A DNA stretch of 33,183 nt from an uncultured Craurococcus sp. (lineage in GTDB: Bacteria; Pseudomonadota; Alphaproteobacteria; Acetobacterales; Acetobacteraceae), in contig CADCTD010000180.1 of NCBI GenBank assembly GCA_902805545.1, forward strand, positions 1 to 33,183, in the 5' to 3' direction. The position numbers and the translations under genes are program-made. Positions within the stretch are counted from its first letter, which is position 1. Each line of letters starts with the position of its first letter. Below, piece after piece: positions 17,325 to 25,336 of the stretch. Under the pieces are notes generated by a model, which made no database searches, had not been told where the DNA came from, and saw nothing but the letters and a program-made list of their open reading frames with translations.

Positions 17325-18416
17325 TCAGGAAGGCTGGGCCCGTCGCGCGATGACCGCGACGGGCCCGCCGCCGTCCGGGCCCTGGTGCTCGGCGCCGCCG
17401 CTGACGAAGATGTCGGTGCGGCCAACGGCCCCGGCGATGACGCCGCCGACCAGCGCCCGCGCATGGCGGGTGGCATTGATGTCGCTGTCGTCCCACATGA
17501 TATGACGCCGTCCGCGGATGCGTCCGTTGGATGACGGCTCCGCCTTCGCCAGCACCGCGACCAGGCGATCGGCGTCCGCGGCAGCGAGCTGGCCGTCCTC
17601 CGTCGGCAGGCCCGCGAGGCGGAGGGCGCGATGCACGGCGGGCAGGTCGATCGCGTCCTGCATGACCGCATGGGCGATCGCAAGGTCACCGGACCAGGCG
17701 TTGCTGTTGCCGAGCACGACGATCTCGCAGCGCTCCAGCTCGACGCCGGCGGAGGCGCTGGCGACGCTGGAGTATTTTTGCCAGTTCCGGCCGATATCCT
17801 CGGGGGCGATGCCGTCGATCTCGCCGAGGGCGAGTGCTGCGCCAAGGGCGGAGGCGCCGCGGGAGAGGCCCATCGAGGCATAGGTGTCCTCCGTCGCCAC
17901 GGGGGCGCGGGCGGCGGCGATGCGCTCCGTCGTCAGCAGCGGGCATTTCACCTGGACGTAGCGCGGCTCGGTAATCCCGGCCTCCGCCATGGCCTGGCGC
18001 AGGGCGGCGGCGACGGCTTCGGCCTGGGCGACGCGGCCGATCTCCTCCGGCGCGAAGTCGCGGGTGAAGCCGGTGCCGATGGCGAGCGCGCCCTGCGGGT
18101 TGGCGACGTCGCCCTCCTCGACGGCGAGGACGAGGACATGCGGGGAGAGGCCGCCCTCGGTGCCGCCGGACATCACCAGGGCGACGCGGGCGGCGGCCTC
18201 GGCGCCGAGATGGCCCGCCAGCATCAGCGTCAGGGATTGTACCGCATAGGCGCGGGTGAAGTCGTTGACGCAGCCATTGCCCTCAGTCTTGCCAAGGATC
18301 GCCACGATGCCGGCCGGGTCGAGCCGGCCGTCGGCGATCAGGGCCTCGATCGCCGCGGTGTCGCCCGGGTGGCGCGTGGGGAGGCGGTGGAGGGCGGCGC
18401 GACGAGGCTTCGGCAT
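17325..18416 (-). CDS. Ring-opening amidohydrolase (cyanuric acid amidohydrolase/barbiturase family)
   Basis: 363 residues, the family length. These enzymes (AtzD, TrzD, barbiturase) open a cyclic imide ring using three pseudo-symmetric Ser-Lys pairs. All landmarks are visible, numbered from ATG 18416: Lys43 in ILGKTEGNG, Ser83 in MSGGTEGGLSPH, Lys157 in VQVKCPLL, a serine cluster in SSVASASAGVE, Lys291 in AKAEPSSNGRIRG, and Ser339 in VSGGAEHQGPDGGGPVAV. The spacing agrees with AtzD. Whether the substrate is cyanuric acid, barbituric acid or another ring is not settled. The next gene is divergent and may function with it. No allophanate or biuret hydrolase is present in the window. Confidence 0.9.
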   Translation of the reverse strand: MPKPRRAALHRLPTRHPGDTAAIEALIADGRLDPAGIVAILGKTEGNGCVNDFTRAYAVQSLTLMLAGHLGAEAAARVALVMSGGTEGGLSPHVLVLAVEEGDVANPQGALAIGTGFTRDFAPEEIGRVAQAEAVAAALRQAMAEAGITEPRYVQVKCPLLTTERIAAARAPVATEDTYASMGLSRGASALGAALALGEIDGIAPEDIGRNWQKYSSVASASAGVELERCEIVVLGNSNAWSGDLAIAHAVMQDAIDLPAVHRALRLAGLPTEDGQLAAADADRLVAVLAKAEPSSNGRIRGRRHIMWDDSDINATRHARALVGGVIAGAVGRTDIFVSGGAEHQGPDGGGPVAVIARRAQPS

Positions 18417-18425
18417 AGGAAGGGG

Positions 18426-18435
18426 CTTCCGGAAG
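18426..18435. promoter_or_regulatory. Ten-base palindrome between the divergent amidohydrolase and CnbZ-like genes
   Basis: CTTCCGGAAG, a perfect palindrome, in the 61-base divergent intergenic region. A shared operator is possible; palindromes this short also occur by chance. Confidence 0.25.
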
Positions 18436-18477
18436 GTCGGTTCGGTGGCACCATAGCGGGGAGCAGGAGGTCCTCGC

Positions 18478-19233
18478 ATGGTCAGCACCATCAGCCTCGA
18501 TGAACGTGGCTATCGCTTCATTCCCGCGGTCTTCCAGTATTCGGGCGGCGTCGCGGCGCTGCCCGGGTGGCGGCTGGAGCGGGTTCGCTTCGCCGAGCCG
18601 GTCCCGCTGCTGGCCGGGTTCGGGCGGATTGCGGATTTCCTGCAGGCGGCGGGGCTGCCGTTGACGGCCTTCTGCGCCTGCGAGCTTCGGTCGCCGGCGC
18701 CCTTCACCGAGGTGGGGTTCCGCCGCTTCAACGAGGGCTATGCCGGCGTGCTCGGCGAATGGGGCGTGCTGGTCGAGGGGCGGAACCCGGTGGCGCGGAG
18801 CAATGTCTGCCCGGAGATCGCACCGCCCGCCGAGCCTGGCTTCCATGCCTTCACCTATGCGCTGCGGGATGCGGCGGCAGGGCCGAGCTTCGTTGTCGCG
18901 GGGAGCGGGGAGAGCATGGAGGGCAAGGCGACCTATGCGGAGAGCACGGTCGCCTATCGGGACCTGTCGCCGGCGGGGATCCGGACCAAGGCGGAGTATG
19001 TGCTGGGCGAGATGGAGCGGCGGATGGCGGCGCTCGACGCCACCTGGCAGGTCACGACCGGCATGCAGGTCTACACGGTGCACGACATCCACCCCTTCCT
19101 CGGCGACGAGCTGGTGCGGCGCGGGGCCGCGCGCCATGGCGTGACCTGGCAGCATTGCCGGCCGCCGGTGGTCGACCTGGAATACGAGATGGATTGCCGC
19201 GGGCTGCCGCTCGAGCGTGTGCTGACCATTTGA
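18478..19233 (+). CDS. Uncharacterised protein resembling CnbZ-type 2-aminomuconate deaminases
   Basis: 251 residues, no signal peptide. I recall similar sequences annotated as 2-amino-5-chloromuconate deaminase CnbZ (start STISLDERGYRFIPAVFQYSGGVAALPG, then PLTAFCACELRSPAPFTEVGF, RSNVCPEI, and the C-terminal VYTVHDIHPFL...CRPPVVDLEYEMDCRG). The second half (SFVVAGSGES..., TKAEYVLGEMERRM, TTGMQVYTVHDIHPF) has the layout of a RidA-like domain. The match is from memory only. ATG 18478 follows AGGAGG (18466-18471). Divergence from a ring-opening amidohydrolase suggests joint breakdown of a nitrogen-containing ring compound. Confidence 0.55.
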   Translation: MVSTISLDERGYRFIPAVFQYSGGVAALPGWRLERVRFAEPVPLLAGFGRIADFLQAAGLPLTAFCACELRSPAPFTEVGFRRFNEGYAGVLGEWGVLVEGRNPVARSNVCPEIAPPAEPGFHAFTYALRDAAAGPSFVVAGSGESMEGKATYAESTVAYRDLSPAGIRTKAEYVLGEMERRMAALDATWQVTTGMQVYTVHDIHPFLGDELVRRGAARHGVTWQHCRPPVVDLEYEMDCRGLPLERVLTI

Positions 19234-20180: not shown

Positions 20181-21491
20181 CTAGGCCGCCACCAGCCAGC
20201 CCCGGGCGCCGCGTCCCACCGCGTCGCCCACAAGCAGCAGCGCCGGCCCGCCCATGAGCCAGCCGGGTGCGTCCCTGGCGATGCTCTCCAGCGTGCCGCG
20301 CAGCACGCGCTGCTGCGGCGTGCCACCGCGTTCGATGACGGCGGCGGGCATGGTGGGCGCCATGCCCTCGGCGACGAGGCCGTCGCGCAGCGGCACCAGG
20401 GTGCTGGTGCCCATGTAGATCGCCAGGGTCTGACCGGGCTGGACCAGGCCGCGGACATCGACCCCGCCGTCGCGCCGGTGGCCGGTGACGAAGGTGACGG
20501 CTCGGGCGGCGTCGCGGTGGGTGAGCGGGATGCCCGCGCCGGCGGCGCAGGCAAGCGCGGCGGTGACGCCGGGGACGACCTCGCAGGGGATGCCGGCCTC
20601 CGCCAGCGCCTCCGCCTCCTCGCCGCCGCGGCCGAAGATCAGCGGGTCACCGCCCTTCAGGCGCACCACGCGCTTGCCCTCGCGGGCGAGGCGCACCAGC
20701 AGCGTGTTGATGTCCTCCTGCTTCATGCAGTGATTGGCCCGCGCCTTGCCGACGAAGATGCGCTCGGCGTCGCGGCGGGCCATCTCCAGCACGGCCTCGG
20801 TGCCGAGGCGGTCGTGGACGATGACATCGGCCTCGCCGAGGAGGCGAAGGGCACGCAGGGTCAGCAGGTCGGCGGCGCCGGGGCCGGCCCCGACCAGGTG
20901 GACGATGCCCGAGGGGCGCGAATCGGCGGCATCGAGGGCGGTGGCGAAGGCGGCATCGGCCTCGGCGTCGCGGCCGGCCAGCGCCAGCTCGGCCGGGGGG
21001 CCGGCCAGCGCCGCCTCGAGAAAACGGCGGCGGGCTCCGAGTTCGGGCAGGCGGGCGCGGACGGCCGACTTGAAGCGCTCGGCCAGTGCGGCGATGCGGC
21101 CGAGGGTCGGGGGCAGGACGGCCTCGATCTTCTGCCGGACCATGCGGGCGAGGACAGGGGCGGCGCCTCCGGTCGAGACGGCGATGGTGACCGGGGCGCG
21201 GTCGATGATCGCCGGCATCAGCGCGGTGCAGAGGGCGGGGCGGTCGACGACGTTCACCGGGATGCCGCGGGCGCGGCAGGCTGCGGCGAGGGCCTGCAGC
21301 TCGGCTTCCGGCGCGTCGGCGCCGATTGCGAGGGGGCAGCCGTCGAGCAGGGATTCATCGAATTGCGTGGCGAAGCGGATCTCGGCGCCGGCGGCGCGGA
21401 GGGGCTCCGCCTTGCGCTCCGCCACCTCGCCGCTGCCGAGGACCAGCACCGGCCGGGCCTGGAGGTCGAGGAAGACGGGGAAATGCTGCAT
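20181..21491 (-). CDS. cysG: Siroheme synthase CysG (methyltransferase, dehydrogenase and ferrochelatase)
   Basis: 436 residues, full length. Makes siroheme from uroporphyrinogen III for sulfite and nitrite reductases. N-terminal half: NAD-binding dehydrogenase/chelatase domain (VLVLGSGEVAERKAEPLRAAGA, then VTIAVSTGGAAPVLARMVRQKIE). C-terminal half: uroporphyrinogen methyltransferase (VHLVGAGPGAADLLTLRALRLLGEADVIVHDRL, RVVRLKGGDPLIFGRGGEE). The start overlaps the stop of the nitrate-reductase remnant by one base (TGATG), a sign of an old nas-cysG operon. With nitrite reductase absent from the locus, it probably now serves sulfite reduction. No decay is visible. Confidence 0.97.
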   Translation of the reverse strand: MQHFPVFLDLQARPVLVLGSGEVAERKAEPLRAAGAEIRFATQFDESLLDGCPLAIGADAPEAELQALAAACRARGIPVNVVDRPALCTALMPAIIDRAPVTIAVSTGGAAPVLARMVRQKIEAVLPPTLGRIAALAERFKSAVRARLPELGARRRFLEAALAGPPAELALAGRDAEADAAFATALDAADSRPSGIVHLVGAGPGAADLLTLRALRLLGEADVIVHDRLGTEAVLEMARRDAERIFVGKARANHCMKQEDINTLLVRLAREGKRVVRLKGGDPLIFGRGGEEAEALAEAGIPCEVVPGVTAALACAAGAGIPLTHRDAARAVTFVTGHRRDGGVDVRGLVQPGQTLAIYMGTSTLVPLRDGLVAEGMAPTMPAAVIERGGTPQQRVLRGTLESIARDAPGWLMGGPALLLVGDAVGRGARGWLVAA

Positions 21492-21982
21492 CAGACGGGT
21501 TCCGGCACCAGGGTCTTCGCTGGGAGGGCGGCGATTTCCGGGCGGCGGGAGCCGCAGCCCGTGCCGGCCCGCGTCGCCTCGCCGACCAGGGCAGGGGTGT
21601 TAGCATCATGGGCGATGCTTGCGCAGATCACGGATGCGGCGACGCCCTGGCAGACGCAGCTGGTGGGCGAGGGGGCGTCGGCCGGAAGGGCGCGACGGGC
21701 GGCGCTGCCGATGGCTGGCTCGGTGAAGAGCGAGCGGAGCCAGCCGCGGCGGGCAGGAGGGCGGAGCCGGCGGGCAAGGATGAGGCAGGCAAGGGGGCGG
21801 CCCTCGCGCAGCCGGGCCGCGCTCGCCGCCAAGGACGAGGTTGTCCCGGGTCGCGCCCCAACTCGCCTGCTTCGAAACCTCGACCTCCGGCATGCCGTAT
21901 CTGGCGGAGCGGCCGCGCTTCTGGCGGTGATGAGCGGGGCGGCGTCGGTCAGCGCGATGGAGCCGGGCAGCGCCTTCCTCAC
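21491..21982 (-). pseudogene. nasA: C-terminal remnant of assimilatory nitrate reductase (BFD-like iron-sulfur domain)
   Basis: The homologous part is about 21491-21811: an REGRPLACLILAR...GWLRSLFTEPAIGSAARRAL segment, then a BFD-like [2Fe-2S] domain with C-V-C and G-C-G-S-R-R-P-E. In working enzymes the second pair is CxxC; here the last Cys is Arg (codon at 21545-21547). The whole molybdopterin-binding body (over 2 kb) is missing. Between nasS and this fragment (about 21812-22039) I recognise nothing, and the upstream frame looks scrambled. The stop still overlaps cysG. I infer a deletion relic of a nas operon. It has no sensible start codon and is unlikely to give a working protein, though readthrough might still couple cysG translation. 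Confidence 0.7.
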
Positions 21983-22039
21983 CTCCGGTGCCGTCGAGCC
22001 CTGGGCGAAGGCGTGGCGGCACGGGCGGTGGGGCTCACT

Positions 22040-23146
22040 TCAGGCGTGGTCCAGGTTGCCGCCCGGCGGTGGGGAATGGGAGGGGGAAGGGGGTGGCGCG
22101 GGCGCGGGCGGCTCGGCCTCGCGCAGGCGTGCGGCGGCGGCGCGCCAGATGTCCGGGCGCCACGAGGCGAGGGCCGTGCTGTCGCTGACCGCCCGCGGGA
22201 TCTGGCCCCAGCGGCGCATCTGGCGGAGGAACCAGGCGGCCTGCTCGCGGCGCGGGAAGGTGGCGTTGTGGAAGCGCAGCGGCGCGGCGAGCGGCAGGCC
22301 TTCGGCCGTGCCTTCGAAGCCAGCCATGATCTCGGCGCGATCGAGGCGGGGGAAGGCGCGGCGGCGGAGGATGCTGACGGCCTCGGCCTGGTTCTCCGGC
22401 TCGTCGAGCCAGCGCGCGGCGGCGATGACGGCGGCGGTGCAGGCGGTCGCACTCTCCGGGTCGCGCGTCGCGTAGCCGGCGGCGAAGGCGAGGGCCGTCT
22501 CCGGGTGGTTCGGCCAGATGTCGCCGGAGGAGAGGGCGATGCGTCCGGCGCCGAGGGTGGCGGCATGGCTGCCCCAGGGCTCGCCGGCGCAGAAGCCGTC
22601 GATCTCGCCCTCGGCCAGGCGCTGCGCGACCATGGGCGGCGGGACGACGGTGAGGCGGAGGTCGCGGTCGGGGTCGAGTCCGGCCTCGGCCAGCCAGAAG
22701 CGCAGCAGGTAGTTGTGCGAAGAGAAGGGAAAGGCGACGGCCAGCGTCAGCGGCGGCCGGCCCTGCCCGACGCGGCGGCGGACCAGGGCGCCGAAGCTGG
22801 CGGCGGGGAGCGGGCGAGGGAAGCGGCCGAGCTCCTGCGCAAGCGCGTTGGCGAGGGTGACGGTACTGCCATTGGCCCCGAGCCCGGCGGTAACCGTGAC
22901 CTGGGCACGGACGCCGGAGAGGCCGGCTGCCAGCGCGATGGGCATGGGGCCGAGGAGATGGGCGGCATCAAGGGCGCCGAAGGCGATCTTGTCGCGCAGC
23001 GCGGCCCAGGAGGGCTCGGCTGAGAGGGTGACGCGGAGCCCGACGGCATCGAACAGGCCGAGCTCCTGCGCTGCGAGCAGCGGCGCGGCATCGGTCAGCG
23101 GGACGAAGCCGATGCGGAGGGTGCGCAGGACCGGGTGGTGGCGCAT
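22040..23146 (-). CDS. nasS: NasS/NrtA-family nitrate-sensing protein
   Basis: Nitrate/bicarbonate-binding NrtA/CmpA fold. Without a signal peptide and next to nasT, it is NasS, the cytoplasmic sensor that holds NasT until nitrate or nitrite binds. Seen: LRIGFVPLTDAAPLLAAQELGLFDAVGL at the N-terminus, EPSWAALRDKIAFGALDAAHLLGPMPIALA, and FCAGEPWGSHAA. 368 residues from ATG 23146, which precedes the conserved LRIGF start; the frame opens further upstream (23302) but that part is unlike the family. The Pro-rich C-terminal tail is unusual. Its usual downstream targets (transporter, nitrite and nitrate reductases) are missing here. Confidence 0.85.
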   Translation of the reverse strand: MRHHPVLRTLRIGFVPLTDAAPLLAAQELGLFDAVGLRVTLSAEPSWAALRDKIAFGALDAAHLLGPMPIALAAGLSGVRAQVTVTAGLGANGSTVTLANALAQELGRFPRPLPAASFGALVRRRVGQGRPPLTLAVAFPFSSHNYLLRFWLAEAGLDPDRDLRLTVVPPPMVAQRLAEGEIDGFCAGEPWGSHAATLGAGRIALSSGDIWPNHPETALAFAAGYATRDPESATACTAAVIAAARWLDEPENQAEAVSILRRRAFPRLDRAEIMAGFEGTAEGLPLAAPLRFHNATFPRREQAAWFLRQMRRWGQIPRAVSDSTALASWRPDIWRAAAARLREAEPPAPAPPPSPSHSPPPGGNLDHA

Positions 23147-23245
23147 TGGGCGGGGGGCGTCGTCGGCATCGGGCGGCAAGGGCGGTCCTCCGGCCCGGAT
23201 GAGCCAGATGCGGGCCGCCATTGGACCGCGGTTGGATCGGACGAT

Positions 23246-23264
23246 CGGCCCCGCTTGGGGGCCG
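23246..23264. other. Stable hairpin between nasT and nasS
   Basis: On the forward strand CGGCCCC-GCTTG-GGGGCCG, a perfect 7-base stem, about 100 bases upstream of the nasS start. ANTAR proteins such as NasT act on leader-RNA hairpins, but the classical target has two hairpins with six-base loops; this one has a five-base loop, so it does not fit that model well. Confidence 0.35.
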
Positions 23265-23343
23265 TGGGATGCACGCCGTTGCGCACCGCCTCGCCTGCCC
23301 AAGGCATCAGAAGCGGAGGCGGCCGGTCAAGGAAGCATTGCGT

Positions 23344-23373
23344 GCATAACGGGCAAACAAAATAACTGGACAA
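23344..23373 (-). promoter_or_regulatory. Candidate sigma-70-type promoter for nasS in an A+T-rich patch
   Basis: On the minus strand TTGTCC (23368-23373) and TTATGC (23344-23349) are 18 bases apart. The ~60-base stretch 23341-23402 is strikingly A+T-rich for this genome, which is typical of promoter DNA. Confidence 0.35.
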
Positions 23374-23387
23374 GAAGGATCACAAAT

Positions 23388-23402
23388 TAGGCGAATTGCC
23401 TA
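23388..23402 (-). terminator. Short dyad at the nasT stop codon
   Basis: TAGGC-GAATT-GCCTA, a 5-base stem including the nasT stop codon. On the minus strand it is followed by ATTT, so it could be a weak intrinsic terminator after nasT. Confidence 0.3.
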
Positions 23403-23999
23403 GTTTGAGTCCAAAAGGCGAGCGGCGAGGGCCGCAATTTTCAGGCCGCGATCCATCGCCATGCGGCGGAGGCGGCGATAGGCCTCCGGCTCGGTGAGGC
23501 GGTGGCGCTCCATGAGCAGGGCCTTGGCGCGGTCGACCAGCTTGCGCTCCTCGAGGTCGCGGCGGGCGGTGGCAAGCTCCGCCCGCAGCGCCTGGTGCGC
23601 GCGGAAGCGGCGGATGGCGACCTCGATCACCGGGCGGAGGCGGGCGGGGGCCATGCCCTCCACCACATAGGCCGAGACGCCGGCGGCCAATGCTTCCTCA
23701 ATCTGCTCGGGCTCGGCCTTCTCGGCGAAGAGGATGACCGGGCGGGGCTCGTCGCGGTGGAGGGCGCGCATGCCTTCGAGCTCGTCGCGCGAGGGGTCGT
23801 CGAGGCCGCAGACAATCACCTCGGCGCCGGTGTCGCGGACATGACGCGTCAGGGTCCGCGTGCCGGAGGCAATGGCGACGACGGTGCAGCCGACGGCGGA
23901 GAGGCCGGCCTCGACGGCGGCCGCGCGCTCCGGGTCACTGTCGACAAGCAAGACGCGCAGCACGCGGGCTCCCGGTTCGATCCGGTCGGTGAGAAGCAT
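23400..23999 (-). CDS. nasT: NasT-type ANTAR antitermination regulator
   Basis: 199 residues: receiver-like domain (LRVLLVDSDPERAAAVEAGL at ~15-34) and C-terminal ANTAR RNA-binding domain (LEERKLVDRAKALLMERHRLTEPEAYRRLRRMAMDRGLKIAALAARLL). NasT binds leader-RNA hairpins of nitrate-assimilation operons and prevents early termination once NasS lets it go. The receiver seems degenerate: where the phosphorylated Asp is expected the sequence reads VCGLDDPSRDE, with the usual first Asp apparently Gly. NasT works without phosphorylation, so this need not inactivate it. It is upstream of nasS and divergent from the gene at 24083. Confidence 0.88.
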   Translation of the reverse strand: MLLTDRIEPGARVLRVLLVDSDPERAAAVEAGLSAVGCTVVAIASGTRTLTRHVRDTGAEVIVCGLDDPSRDELEGMRALHRDEPRPVILFAEKAEPEQIEEALAAGVSAYVVEGMAPARLRPVIEVAIRRFRAHQALRAELATARRDLEERKLVDRAKALLMERHRLTEPEAYRRLRRMAMDRGLKIAALAARLLDSN

Positions 24000-24082
24000 G
24001 GATCGTGCCGCGTGACGAAGGCGGCGGCGCTTGACCTCGGAGGCGGGGGGGCCAGTATCGGAATGGCGGAGGGAGAGGCGCC

Positions 24083-25336
24083 ATGGTGGACGACATCCTT
24101 GTCATCGGCGGGGGTATCGGCGGGCTGACGCTCGCCCTCTGCCTGCACCGCAACGGCATCTCCTGCCGCGTCGTCGAGGCGGTGGCGGAGGTGAAGCCGC
24201 TCGGCGTCGGGGTGAACATCCTGCCGCATGCCGCGGCCGAGCTGGCGCGGCTCGGCCTGCAGGACGAGCTGCTCAGGCATTGCGTGCAGACGGATGAGGC
24301 GAATTTCTTCAACCGCTTCGGGCAGCTGATCCACCGCGAGCCGCTCGGGCGGGCGGCGGGCTATGCGCATCCGCAGATGTCGATCCATCGGGCGGACCTG
24401 CATGGGGTGCTGCTGGCGGCCGTGCGGGCGCGGCTGGGGGAAGGGGCGGTGCTGTTCGACCGGCGGGTTGCGCGGGTGGAGCAGGACGAGGATGGCGTCA
24501 CCCTCTCCTTCACCCCGGGACGGGGCGGGGGGACGCCGGAGCCGCTGCGGGGGAGCGCCGCGGTCGGGGCGGATGGCATCCACTCCGTGCTGCGGCGGCA
24601 GTTCTACCCGAATGAGGGCGAGCCGAAATACACCGGCTACAACATGTGGCGCGGCGTCACGCGCTGGCCGCCGGTCCTCACCGGCGCGAGCATGACGCGG
24701 GCGGGTTGGCTGAAGACGGGCAAGATGGTGATCTACCCGATCCGCCATGACGTGGATGGCGAAGGGCGGCAGCTCATCAACTGGGTCTTCGAGGTGGAGA
24801 CGGAAACGCATCGTTCCCGGCGGGACTGGAACCGGCCGGGGGATGTGGAGGATGTCATCCCCTATGTGCGGGACTGGGTCTTCGACTGGCTCGATTTGCC
24901 GGCGATGCTGCGGGCCTCCGACGTGGTGCTGGAATTCCCGATGGTGGACCAGGACCCGCTGCCGCGCTGGAGCTTCGGGCGGCTGACGCTGCTCGGCGAT
25001 GCGGCGCATCCGATGGTGCCGCGCGGCTCGAACGGGGCGGGGCAGTCCATCCTCGATGCGCGCTGCCTGGCGGATCGGCTGGCGCAGCATGCGGACGACC
25101 CGGAGACGGCGCTGAAGGCCTACGAGGCGGAGCGGCTGCCGGCGACCACGCAGGTGGTGCTGACCAACCGCAAGACGCCGCCGGATGCGATCCTCGGCGA
25201 GGTCTATGCGCGGACGGGCGACCGGCCCTTCGCGCGGATCGAGGATGTGATGACGCGCGAGGAGATGCTGGCCATCACGGGTGGCTACAAGCGCATCGCC
25301 GGCTATGATCTCGAGACACTCAAGGCACGGGCCTGA
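24083..25336 (+). CDS. PhzS-like FAD-dependent aromatic monooxygenase
   Basis: 417 residues, group A flavoprotein monooxygenase. Seen: FAD-binding GGGIGGLTLAL at ~9-19, the ADGIHS (DG) motif, and LLGDAAHPMVPRGSNGA (GD motif). It strongly resembles PhzS, which hydroxylates and decarboxylates a phenazine carboxylate: shared stretches include PLGVGVNILPHA, MSIHRADL, MWRGVTRWP, EFPMVDQDPLPRWSFGR. The substrate here is probably an aromatic or N-heteroaromatic compound, but no phenazine genes are present. ATG 24083 follows GGAGGGAGAGG. It leads a tight three-gene operon (5- and 2-base gaps) and is divergent from nasT. Confidence 0.9.
   Translation: MVDDILVIGGGIGGLTLALCLHRNGISCRVVEAVAEVKPLGVGVNILPHAAAELARLGLQDELLRHCVQTDEANFFNRFGQLIHREPLGRAAGYAHPQMSIHRADLHGVLLAAVRARLGEGAVLFDRRVARVEQDEDGVTLSFTPGRGGGTPEPLRGSAAVGADGIHSVLRRQFYPNEGEPKYTGYNMWRGVTRWPPVLTGASMTRAGWLKTGKMVIYPIRHDVDGEGRQLINWVFEVETETHRSRRDWNRPGDVEDVIPYVRDWVFDWLDLPAMLRASDVVLEFPMVDQDPLPRWSFGRLTLLGDAAHPMVPRGSNGAGQSILDARCLADRLAQHADDPETALKAYEAERLPATTQVVLTNRKTPPDAILGEVYARTGDRPFARIEDVMTREEMLAITGGYKRIAGYDLETLKARA

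Follow-up and report, generated by a model that had tools for sequence, protein, structure and literature searches.

In a 33,183-nucleotide (nt) contig of an uncultured Craurococcus sp. (Acetobacteraceae; CADCTD010000180.1, assembly GCA_902805545.1), here called the window, a nitrate-assimilation operon has collapsed to its two regulatory genes, nasT and nasS, and its last gene, cysG. Comparison with relatives indicates that one deletion of about 9.4 kb removed nrtBC, most of nrtA, the genes of a NirB-like FAD reductase, NirA and a flavoprotein, and most of nasA, and fused nrtA to the 3′ end of nasA at a short overlap. The minus-strand order is now nasT (23999–23400), nasS (23179–22040), a 549-nt remnant and cysG (21491–20181). 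The retention of nasT, nasS and cysG with loss of the enzymes, which a preliminary description based on the letters alone had recognized, is confirmed by Pfam and NCBIfam profiles and by all seven same-genus (Belnapia) genomes. A twin-hairpin leader RNA 5′ of nasS is the only putative NasT target found in the organism's own genome, and the next complete gene after nasS is cysG. We hold with about even confidence that NasT has been kept because it would drive the only complete cysG, while NasS loses its nitrate sensing. The features are as follows.

23400–23999 (minus strand): nasT, a receiver-like domain plus an ANTAR RNA-binding domain, 199 amino acids, intact (Pfam)
23388–23402 (minus strand): weak terminator-like hairpin directly 3′ of nasT (consensus scan)
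23208–23290 (minus strand): ANTAR-type twin-hairpin leader RNA 5′ of nasS (hairpin scan, covariation and model match)
22040–23179 (minus strand): nasS, NrtA-like nitrate sensor, 379 amino acids from a TTG start, frame open, with S105 and T228 changed
21816–22038 (minus strand): nrtA remnant (profile and alignment to relatives)
21816–21822 (minus strand): deletion junction GCGCGGC (overlap of the nrtA-side and nasA-side alignments)
21491–21822 (minus strand): nasA 3′-end remnant with a BFD-like [2Fe-2S] domain (Fer2_BFD and alignments)
21491–21982 (minus strand): chimeric open frame of 163 codons across the nrtA and nasA remnants (open reading frame reading)
20181–21491 (minus strand): cysG, siroheme synthase, 436 amino acids (NF007922 and own-genome search)

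The 549-nt remnant was used as a query against 60 relatives, and its two halves match at separate places in all seven Belnapia genomes, the first part ending at query position 224 and the last part starting at 218–230. In Belnapia sp. F-4-1 (G005), the two matches (E 2e-92 and 6e-53) are far beyond chance. The halves lie 9.34–9.48 kb apart on one strand in five genomes (G001, G002, G003, G005, G006) and 6.1 kb apart in Belnapia mucosa (G004), and they fall on two short contigs in G007. Relative to Belnapia sp. F-4-1, 9,431 bp are missing and the flanks are colinear. The syntenic comparison that the preliminary description had named as a check thus favors its proposal of a single internal deletion, as do the complete operon in relatives and the lack of a copy of the 9.4-kb stretch elsewhere in the genome. 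Outside the junction, the region is colinear with same-genus relatives over the fetched stretches, except for one flanking gene that is absent in some: a FAD monooxygenase-like gene (FAD_binding_3; 24083–25336) stands between nasT and an M20 peptidase gene in the window and has no counterpart at the same place in B. moabensis, B. mucosa or the Belnapia metagenome-assembled genome G007.

The intact order in Belnapia is nasT-nasS-nrtABC-FAD reductase-nirA-flavoprotein-nasA-cysG, and tblastn found the order of Belnapia sp. F-4-1 also in B. moabensis, B. arida and B. rosea. The 9,431 bp of Belnapia sp. F-4-1 comprise the rest of nrtA, nrtB (TIGR01183, above cut-off), nrtC (TIGR01184, above cut-off), the gene of a NirB-like FAD reductase (TIGR02374, partial and below cut-off), nirA (NF007126, 788 bits, above cut-off), the gene of a CysJ-like flavoprotein (NF004859, above cut-off) and most of nasA. 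The nasA product scores below every NCBIfam cut-off, and its name rests on its Pfam domains (molybdopterin oxidoreductase and C-terminal Fer2_BFD) and its neighbors. The lost enzymes had been listed beforehand as those of nirBD and nasA; nasA holds, and nirBD is to be replaced by the NirB-like FAD reductase, NirA and the CysJ-like flavoprotein. B. mucosa (G004; loci L024 and L059) lacks nirA and the flavoprotein gene between the FAD reductase gene and nasA, and has a NirB-like frame of 907 amino acids at another place (G066:C140).

At the junction, the nrtA-side and nasA-side alignments overlap by 7 nt (21816–21822, GCGCGGC) for four of the seven genomes (L022, L023, L027 and the L030/L031 pair), by 5 nt with L024 and L025, and not at all with L026. 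The nrtA side of four aligned relatives reads GCGCGGC and the nasA side differs from it at only one or two bases, so the junction is taken as a short stretch of partial homology.

Both remnants also carry smaller lesions. The segment 22038–21816, earlier described as about 230 unrecognisable bases, is decayed nrtA: it matches NMT1_2 with E 5e-5 (23.6 bits, just below the cut-off of 24.7) and aligns in two pieces with 65% and 76% identity to a Belnapia NrtA. Compared with relatives, this side has deletions of 42, 10 and 1 nt, its start ATG has become GTG, and the signal-peptide region is mostly deleted. The segment 21822–21491 is the NasA C terminus (Fer2_BFD, 28.8 bits; cut-off 26), and, as had been noted, its stop TGA (21493–21491) shares one base with the cysG ATG. 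The nasA side has indels of +1, −1 and −18 nt, and the Cys of the BFD motif GCGSC, which we take to be an Fe-S ligand, has become Arg. Four of the six small indels break the frame, so that nrtA and nasA are represented by fragments and neither is complete. The chimeric frame of 163 codons begins with a GTG that overlaps the stop of a 19-codon frame starting 1 nt after the nasS stop, and its own stop overlaps the cysG start; no weight is placed on it, because 20% of simulated sequences have such a frame by chance alone.

These lesions also bear on the idea that the assembly has fused two distant loci and dropped 9.4 kb, which the preliminary description had named as a result that would undo its proposal. 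The source assembly is a draft (192 contigs, 97% complete) and the overlap at the junction is short, as such an artefact would produce. It is nevertheless very improbable, given the colinearity of the outer flanks with relatives, the six further indels on both sides of the junction, the Cys-to-Arg change, and the lack of an nrt, nirA or nasA copy elsewhere in the genome. The genome measures 4.5 Mb, compared with 6.0–6.9 Mb in six of seven congeners (the seventh has 3.8 Mb at 75% completeness), and this may reflect wider genome reduction.

Searches of the own genome for the lost genes gave little. A second nasA was not found (the remnant matched at 61% identity and six other sequences at 29–33%), no nirB above cut-off was present, and the nrtA search recovered only NasS and the two pieces of the remnant. 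With the whole 9,431-bp stretch as query, 44 short matches and no further copy were obtained, NasS being the best of them at 68%. The search for other nasA or nirB copies, likewise suggested beforehand, thus returned none, and no cognate nitrate-assimilation genes were found in cis or in trans in this 97% complete draft. One other NIR_SIR protein is encoded on contig C178, at 32% identity and below all curated cut-offs. It is probably the remaining siroheme reductase, a sulfite reductase, because G065 and G067, which still have NirA, also carry a homologue at 30–32%. Among the molybdoenzyme matches, a formate-dehydrogenase-alpha-like frame of the own genome (G000:C190:21238-23313; L040) contains one in-frame TGA, possibly a selenocysteine codon, and TGA-containing frames also occur in five further genomes (G060, G061, G063, G064 and G066).

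CysG matches NF007922 with 526.7 bits (cut-off 400) and has both the methyltransferase and the precorrin-2 dehydrogenase/ferrochelatase domains. It is the only complete siroheme synthase found in the genome, where the only other match is one at 33% to the methyltransferase half, on C17. Its partial Pfam match in a short N-terminal domain was considered as a lesion and rejected, since the relatives share the shortness; CysG of Belnapia and relatives is presumably about 20 residues short in the N-terminal dehydrogenase domain compared with E. coli CysG, which would be a clade trait. Near cysG, the window also has an AtzD/TrzD-type ring-opening amidohydrolase gene (17325–18491), possibly another nitrogen-scavenging gene.

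The case for a NasT-responsive leader between nasT and nasS rests on its loops, its position, its covariation and its off-locus matches. NasT itself has ANTAR (PF03861, 69.7 bits) and receiver (Response_reg, PF00072, 32 bits) domains, both above cut-off, and is the only ANTAR match in the genome. The leader has two stem-loops: P1, with arms at 23289–23281 and 23274–23266 around the loop AACGGC (23280–23275), and P2, with arms at 23229–23223 and 23216–23210 around AATGGC (23222–23217). Both six-base loops start with A and have G as their fourth base, as ANTAR proteins require (PMC3369931). The leader lies 5′ of nasS in all 36 other loci examined, and P2 is present in all 37 leaders scanned (36 loci and the window); the alignment took in the 21 leaders that show both hairpins, leaving aside 9 with P2 only and 7 whose upstream hairpin was not used. 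Two-sided changes were found in 8 of 15 pairs and in 7 of the 9 pairs of P1 in these 21 leaders, whose selection for both hairpins favors pairing in the test. Of five covariation measures, four, including observed pairing, two-sided changes and the covariation score, were reached by 0 of 500 shuffles, and the fifth, further pair types, by 110 of 500. Shifting the partner by 1–3 columns abolished the signal.

A covariance model of 20 leaders (the misaligned L092 being dropped) was run on 10 genomes, with 150 first-look candidates scored per genome. The window leader, itself one of the 20 sequences, scored 80.3 bits (E 8e-12), and the nasS leader was recovered in all 10 genomes (E 2e-6 or better), several of these leaders being in the model. 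Of the five genomes whose nirB-like/nasA cluster lies off-locus, three (G060, G062 and G063; E 0.002–0.012) gave a second, off-locus site, in each case directly 5′ of what reads as a narK-type transporter-like frame followed by nirB-like and nasA frames. The model missed the expected off-locus leader in G061 and G064, so its sensitivity is incomplete. No significant second leader was found in the own genome, where the next match has E 3.5 and, with 150 of 15,933 candidates scored, a weak site could be missed; the four Belnapia genomes gave the nasS leader only (next matches E >1). The preliminary description had held that the targets of the sensor pair are gone and that the pair may regulate something elsewhere. 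A putative target in fact stands 5′ of nasS and still leads into cysG, and, within the sensitivity just given, the search turned up no distant one.

The EutV, AmiR and NasR leaders likewise have dual stem-loops with hexanucleotide loops, A1 and G4 (PMC3369931); in the window, the consensus scan found no intrinsic terminator after P2. Overlap of P2 with an intrinsic terminator is therefore lacking, a feature that defines antiterminator leaders but not all ANTAR sites, and a terminator/antiterminator switch was rejected. The same scan found four terminator-like sites in 21400–24100, compared with 0.7 expected from shuffles. Some ANTAR-type sites are located near ribosome-binding sites (PMC3369931). 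A translational switch, in which P2 would pair with the nasS start region, is no more than a guess: the possible helices are 7–9 nt long in the window and seven same-genus loci, with equal length in 10–99 of 200 shuffles, and only L060 (1), L076 (10) and L080 (12) among the 37 leaders stayed at or below 12 of 200. Rfam at gathering thresholds gave no match in the window, and folding of four single leaders gave z values of −0.6 to −1.3 with P2 absent from the best structure, the folded stretches cutting into P1. A CTTGAC block 5′ of the nasS leader (23326–23331), which may be a promoter −35 element, is present in eight of nine aligned sequences, and the ninth has CTTGAT.

NasS is an NrtA-type binding protein whose frame is open and whose nitrate site is altered. 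It matches NMT1_2 with 252 bits, and its closest solved structure is NrtA 2g29 (sequence E 1e-52; fold TM 0.81 for an AlphaFold model with pLDDT 91, an earlier model from 9 sequences with pLDDT 45.6 being too poor to use). Its start codon is TTG, and relatives have ATG, GTG or TTG at the same position. NrtA holds nitrate via Trp102, Gln155, His196, Gly240 and Lys269 (PMC13204499). In the best 80 of 248 confirmed NasS-like loci, excluding the window, these positions have Trp in 80, Asn in 77 (His in one, Lys in two) at the Gln155 position, His in 79 (Asp in one) and Lys in 80, and the glycine is kept in all rows. In the window, W58, H155 and the glycine are kept, with S105 (codon 22867–22865) at the Gln155 position and T228 (codon 22498–22496) at the Lys269 position. 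The 29 closest loci are uniform at 73 columns; the window differs from them at two of these (K228T and H326Q), and six other taxa compared in the same manner differ at zero or one. Since the charged lysine is lost, nitrate binding by NasS is doubtful. The sensor pair had been described as intact, which holds for its frames and not for the NasS nitrate pocket.

NasST could instead be a still working sensor of nitrate or another anion that controls cysG or an unseen distant target, with pocket changes that alter affinity or ligand. The retained frame and predicted fold of NasS and the conserved W102, H196 and Gly240 positions are compatible with this, and Bradyrhizobium NasT has targets also outside nas genes (PMC6759348). 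We consider a working sensor unlikely, given that Lys is present at the K269 position in all 80 other loci and that the model, which missed two of five expected off-locus targets, found no second leader in the own genome.

Branch-wise constraint appears to differ between the two regulators. The ratio dN/dS (omega) on the window's branch, from three-taxon estimates, is 0.15–0.19 for nasT, 0.33–0.40 (95% interval 0.19–0.69) for nasS and 0.09–0.14 for cysG, and on four other branches it is 0.12–0.35 for nasT and 0.14–0.22 for nasS. NasT is thus as constrained as elsewhere, and it agrees with 28 other loci at all 45 columns that are invariant among them. NasS looks somewhat relaxed, although its intervals overlap those of the other branches. 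No frame-breaking indel is present in the 1,740 nt of nasT and nasS, compared with four in the 549-nt remnant; at the remnant rate 12.7 would be expected (P 3e-6 in a simple Poisson calculation that assumes equal time and rate).

These results bear on the chief rival, a recent orphan in decay, in which nasT and nasS are functionless, have merely stayed unbroken so far, and show their first hits in the NasS pocket. The raised omega and two changed ligand positions of NasS agree with such decay, as does a P1 slightly weaker than in close relatives, and both ends of the full operon are still present in all seven same-genus genomes searched. An unrelaxed nasT with its invariant columns intact and the absence of frame-breaking indels from the pair argue against it, and we regard it as possible, though less probable than retention of NasT for cysG.

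Under retention of NasT for cysG, transcription would start in the nasT-nasS gap and run through the leader, nasS and the remnant into cysG, and NasT would bind the twin hairpins and promote expression of this whole unit. CysG would still be required by the remaining siroheme reductase, probably the sulfite reductase, and NasT would remain under selection as a positive factor for cysG, because CysG appears to be the sole complete siroheme synthase and still needed. A nitrate response would no longer be useful, leaving NasS free to lose nitrate binding (Thr at the K269 and Ser at the Q155 position). Either nitrate would then no longer trigger release of NasT, or NasS would no longer restrain NasT at all; weak restraint, i.e., near-constitutive NasT activity, is expected because cysG must be expressed. 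In Paracoccus denitrificans, nas activity disappears when nasT is lost and becomes constitutive when nasS is lost (PMC3795266). By analogy, this logic would favor keeping nasT and letting NasS drift, which matches the pattern seen.

Besides the overlapping omega intervals, several points weigh against this explanation. From 23388 to the nasS start, the consensus scan gave no terminator-like site, and pairing of P2 with the nasS start does not exceed shuffles in Belnapia. P1 appears slightly weakened in the window: it has G-U where the majority of leaders have A-U or G-C, and at another pair it has a C-C mismatch, a position at which 9 of 20 rows, the window among them, do not pair. A sigma-70 scan is uninformative, since it predicted no promoter at any position, not even in the nasS gap, and nasS or the remnant may contain a promoter of cysG itself. 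Repression of cysG would follow if the binding of NasS to NasT were irreversible. Finally, with a draft genome of 192 contigs at 97% completeness, a missed copy of the lost genes is possible yet unlikely.

Direct succession of cysG after nasS occurs in three others of the 80 loci: Roseicella sp. DB1501 (L063), R. frigidaeris (L065) and Siccirubricoccus soli (L066). These share the nasS-cysG adjacency and the leader with the window, and differ from it in that each of the three genomes carries another nirB-like/nasA cluster at a distant place, where a NasT-type leader was detected in two of the three. An initial classification of these loci as orphan NasST was withdrawn when whole-genome searches found this cluster, which means that their NasT is not an orphan. 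S. soli also has a second NasS-like frame (41%) beside its second cluster, and inspection by eye of the nasS-cysG gap in the three showed no remnant of nrtA or nasA. The full cluster is still present in S. phaeus (L060), which shares 89% NasS identity with S. soli, and nrtABC is still present in R. aerolata; to judge from these two cases, the parallel collapses look independent of the one in the window. A NasS ligand is changed in two of the three parallel loci (Asn to His in L063, His to Asp in L066). Changed ligands thus occur in three of four nasS-cysG loci and in 2 of 77 others (Fisher p 0.0005, or 0.006 without the window), in a post hoc comparison of loci that are not independent. A wider proposal, that a nitrate regulator has turned into a nitrate-blind, NasT-driven activator of siroheme synthesis and that the nasT-nasS-cysG end state was reached at least three times in Acetobacteraceae (the window, S. 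soli and Roseicella), is tentative and in our judgment doubtful; in it, the ANTAR leader would, after loss of the enzymes, control only nasS and cysG, and the need to express cysG in the absence of nitrate would explain why NasS lost its nitrate lysine.

The closest studied system is NasS-NasT of P. denitrificans, which likewise pairs an ANTAR protein with an NrtA-like sensor in tandem and uses leader hairpins as the target (PMC3795266, PMC5424462). In that species the leader is placed between nasS and nasA, where it serves the nas enzymes, and NasS is said to keep every nitrate ligand (PMC3795266). The window instead has its leader between nasT and nasS, has lost the enzymes, and carries changes at the K269 and Q155 positions of NasS. 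The Belnapia operon (B. moabensis, B. arida, B. rosea and Belnapia sp. F-4-1) resembles the window in gene order at both ends, in the leader and in the cysG overlap, and differs in keeping about 9.4 kb of transporter and enzyme genes. No report of a NasST pair without nitrate enzymes, or of NasST control of cysG alone, was recognized in open-licence literature by title and abstract start. The parts (NasST, ANTAR leader and cysG) are of known kinds, and the arrangement after the collapse and the nitrate-site changes are new.

The locus is a natural case in which the genes under a sensor and its RNA-binding partner were lost in one identifiable step, leaving the pair, its putative RNA target and one housekeeping gene, in a leader-before-nasS layout that departs from the one studied in Paracoccus. 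From the Lys-to-Thr change and the contrast between nasT and nasS, clear predictions follow about the expression of cysG, the binding of nitrate and growth with sulfate. The locus thereby raises, in testable form, the general question of whether an essential passenger gene behind their switch can keep regulators in place after the pathway they served is gone.

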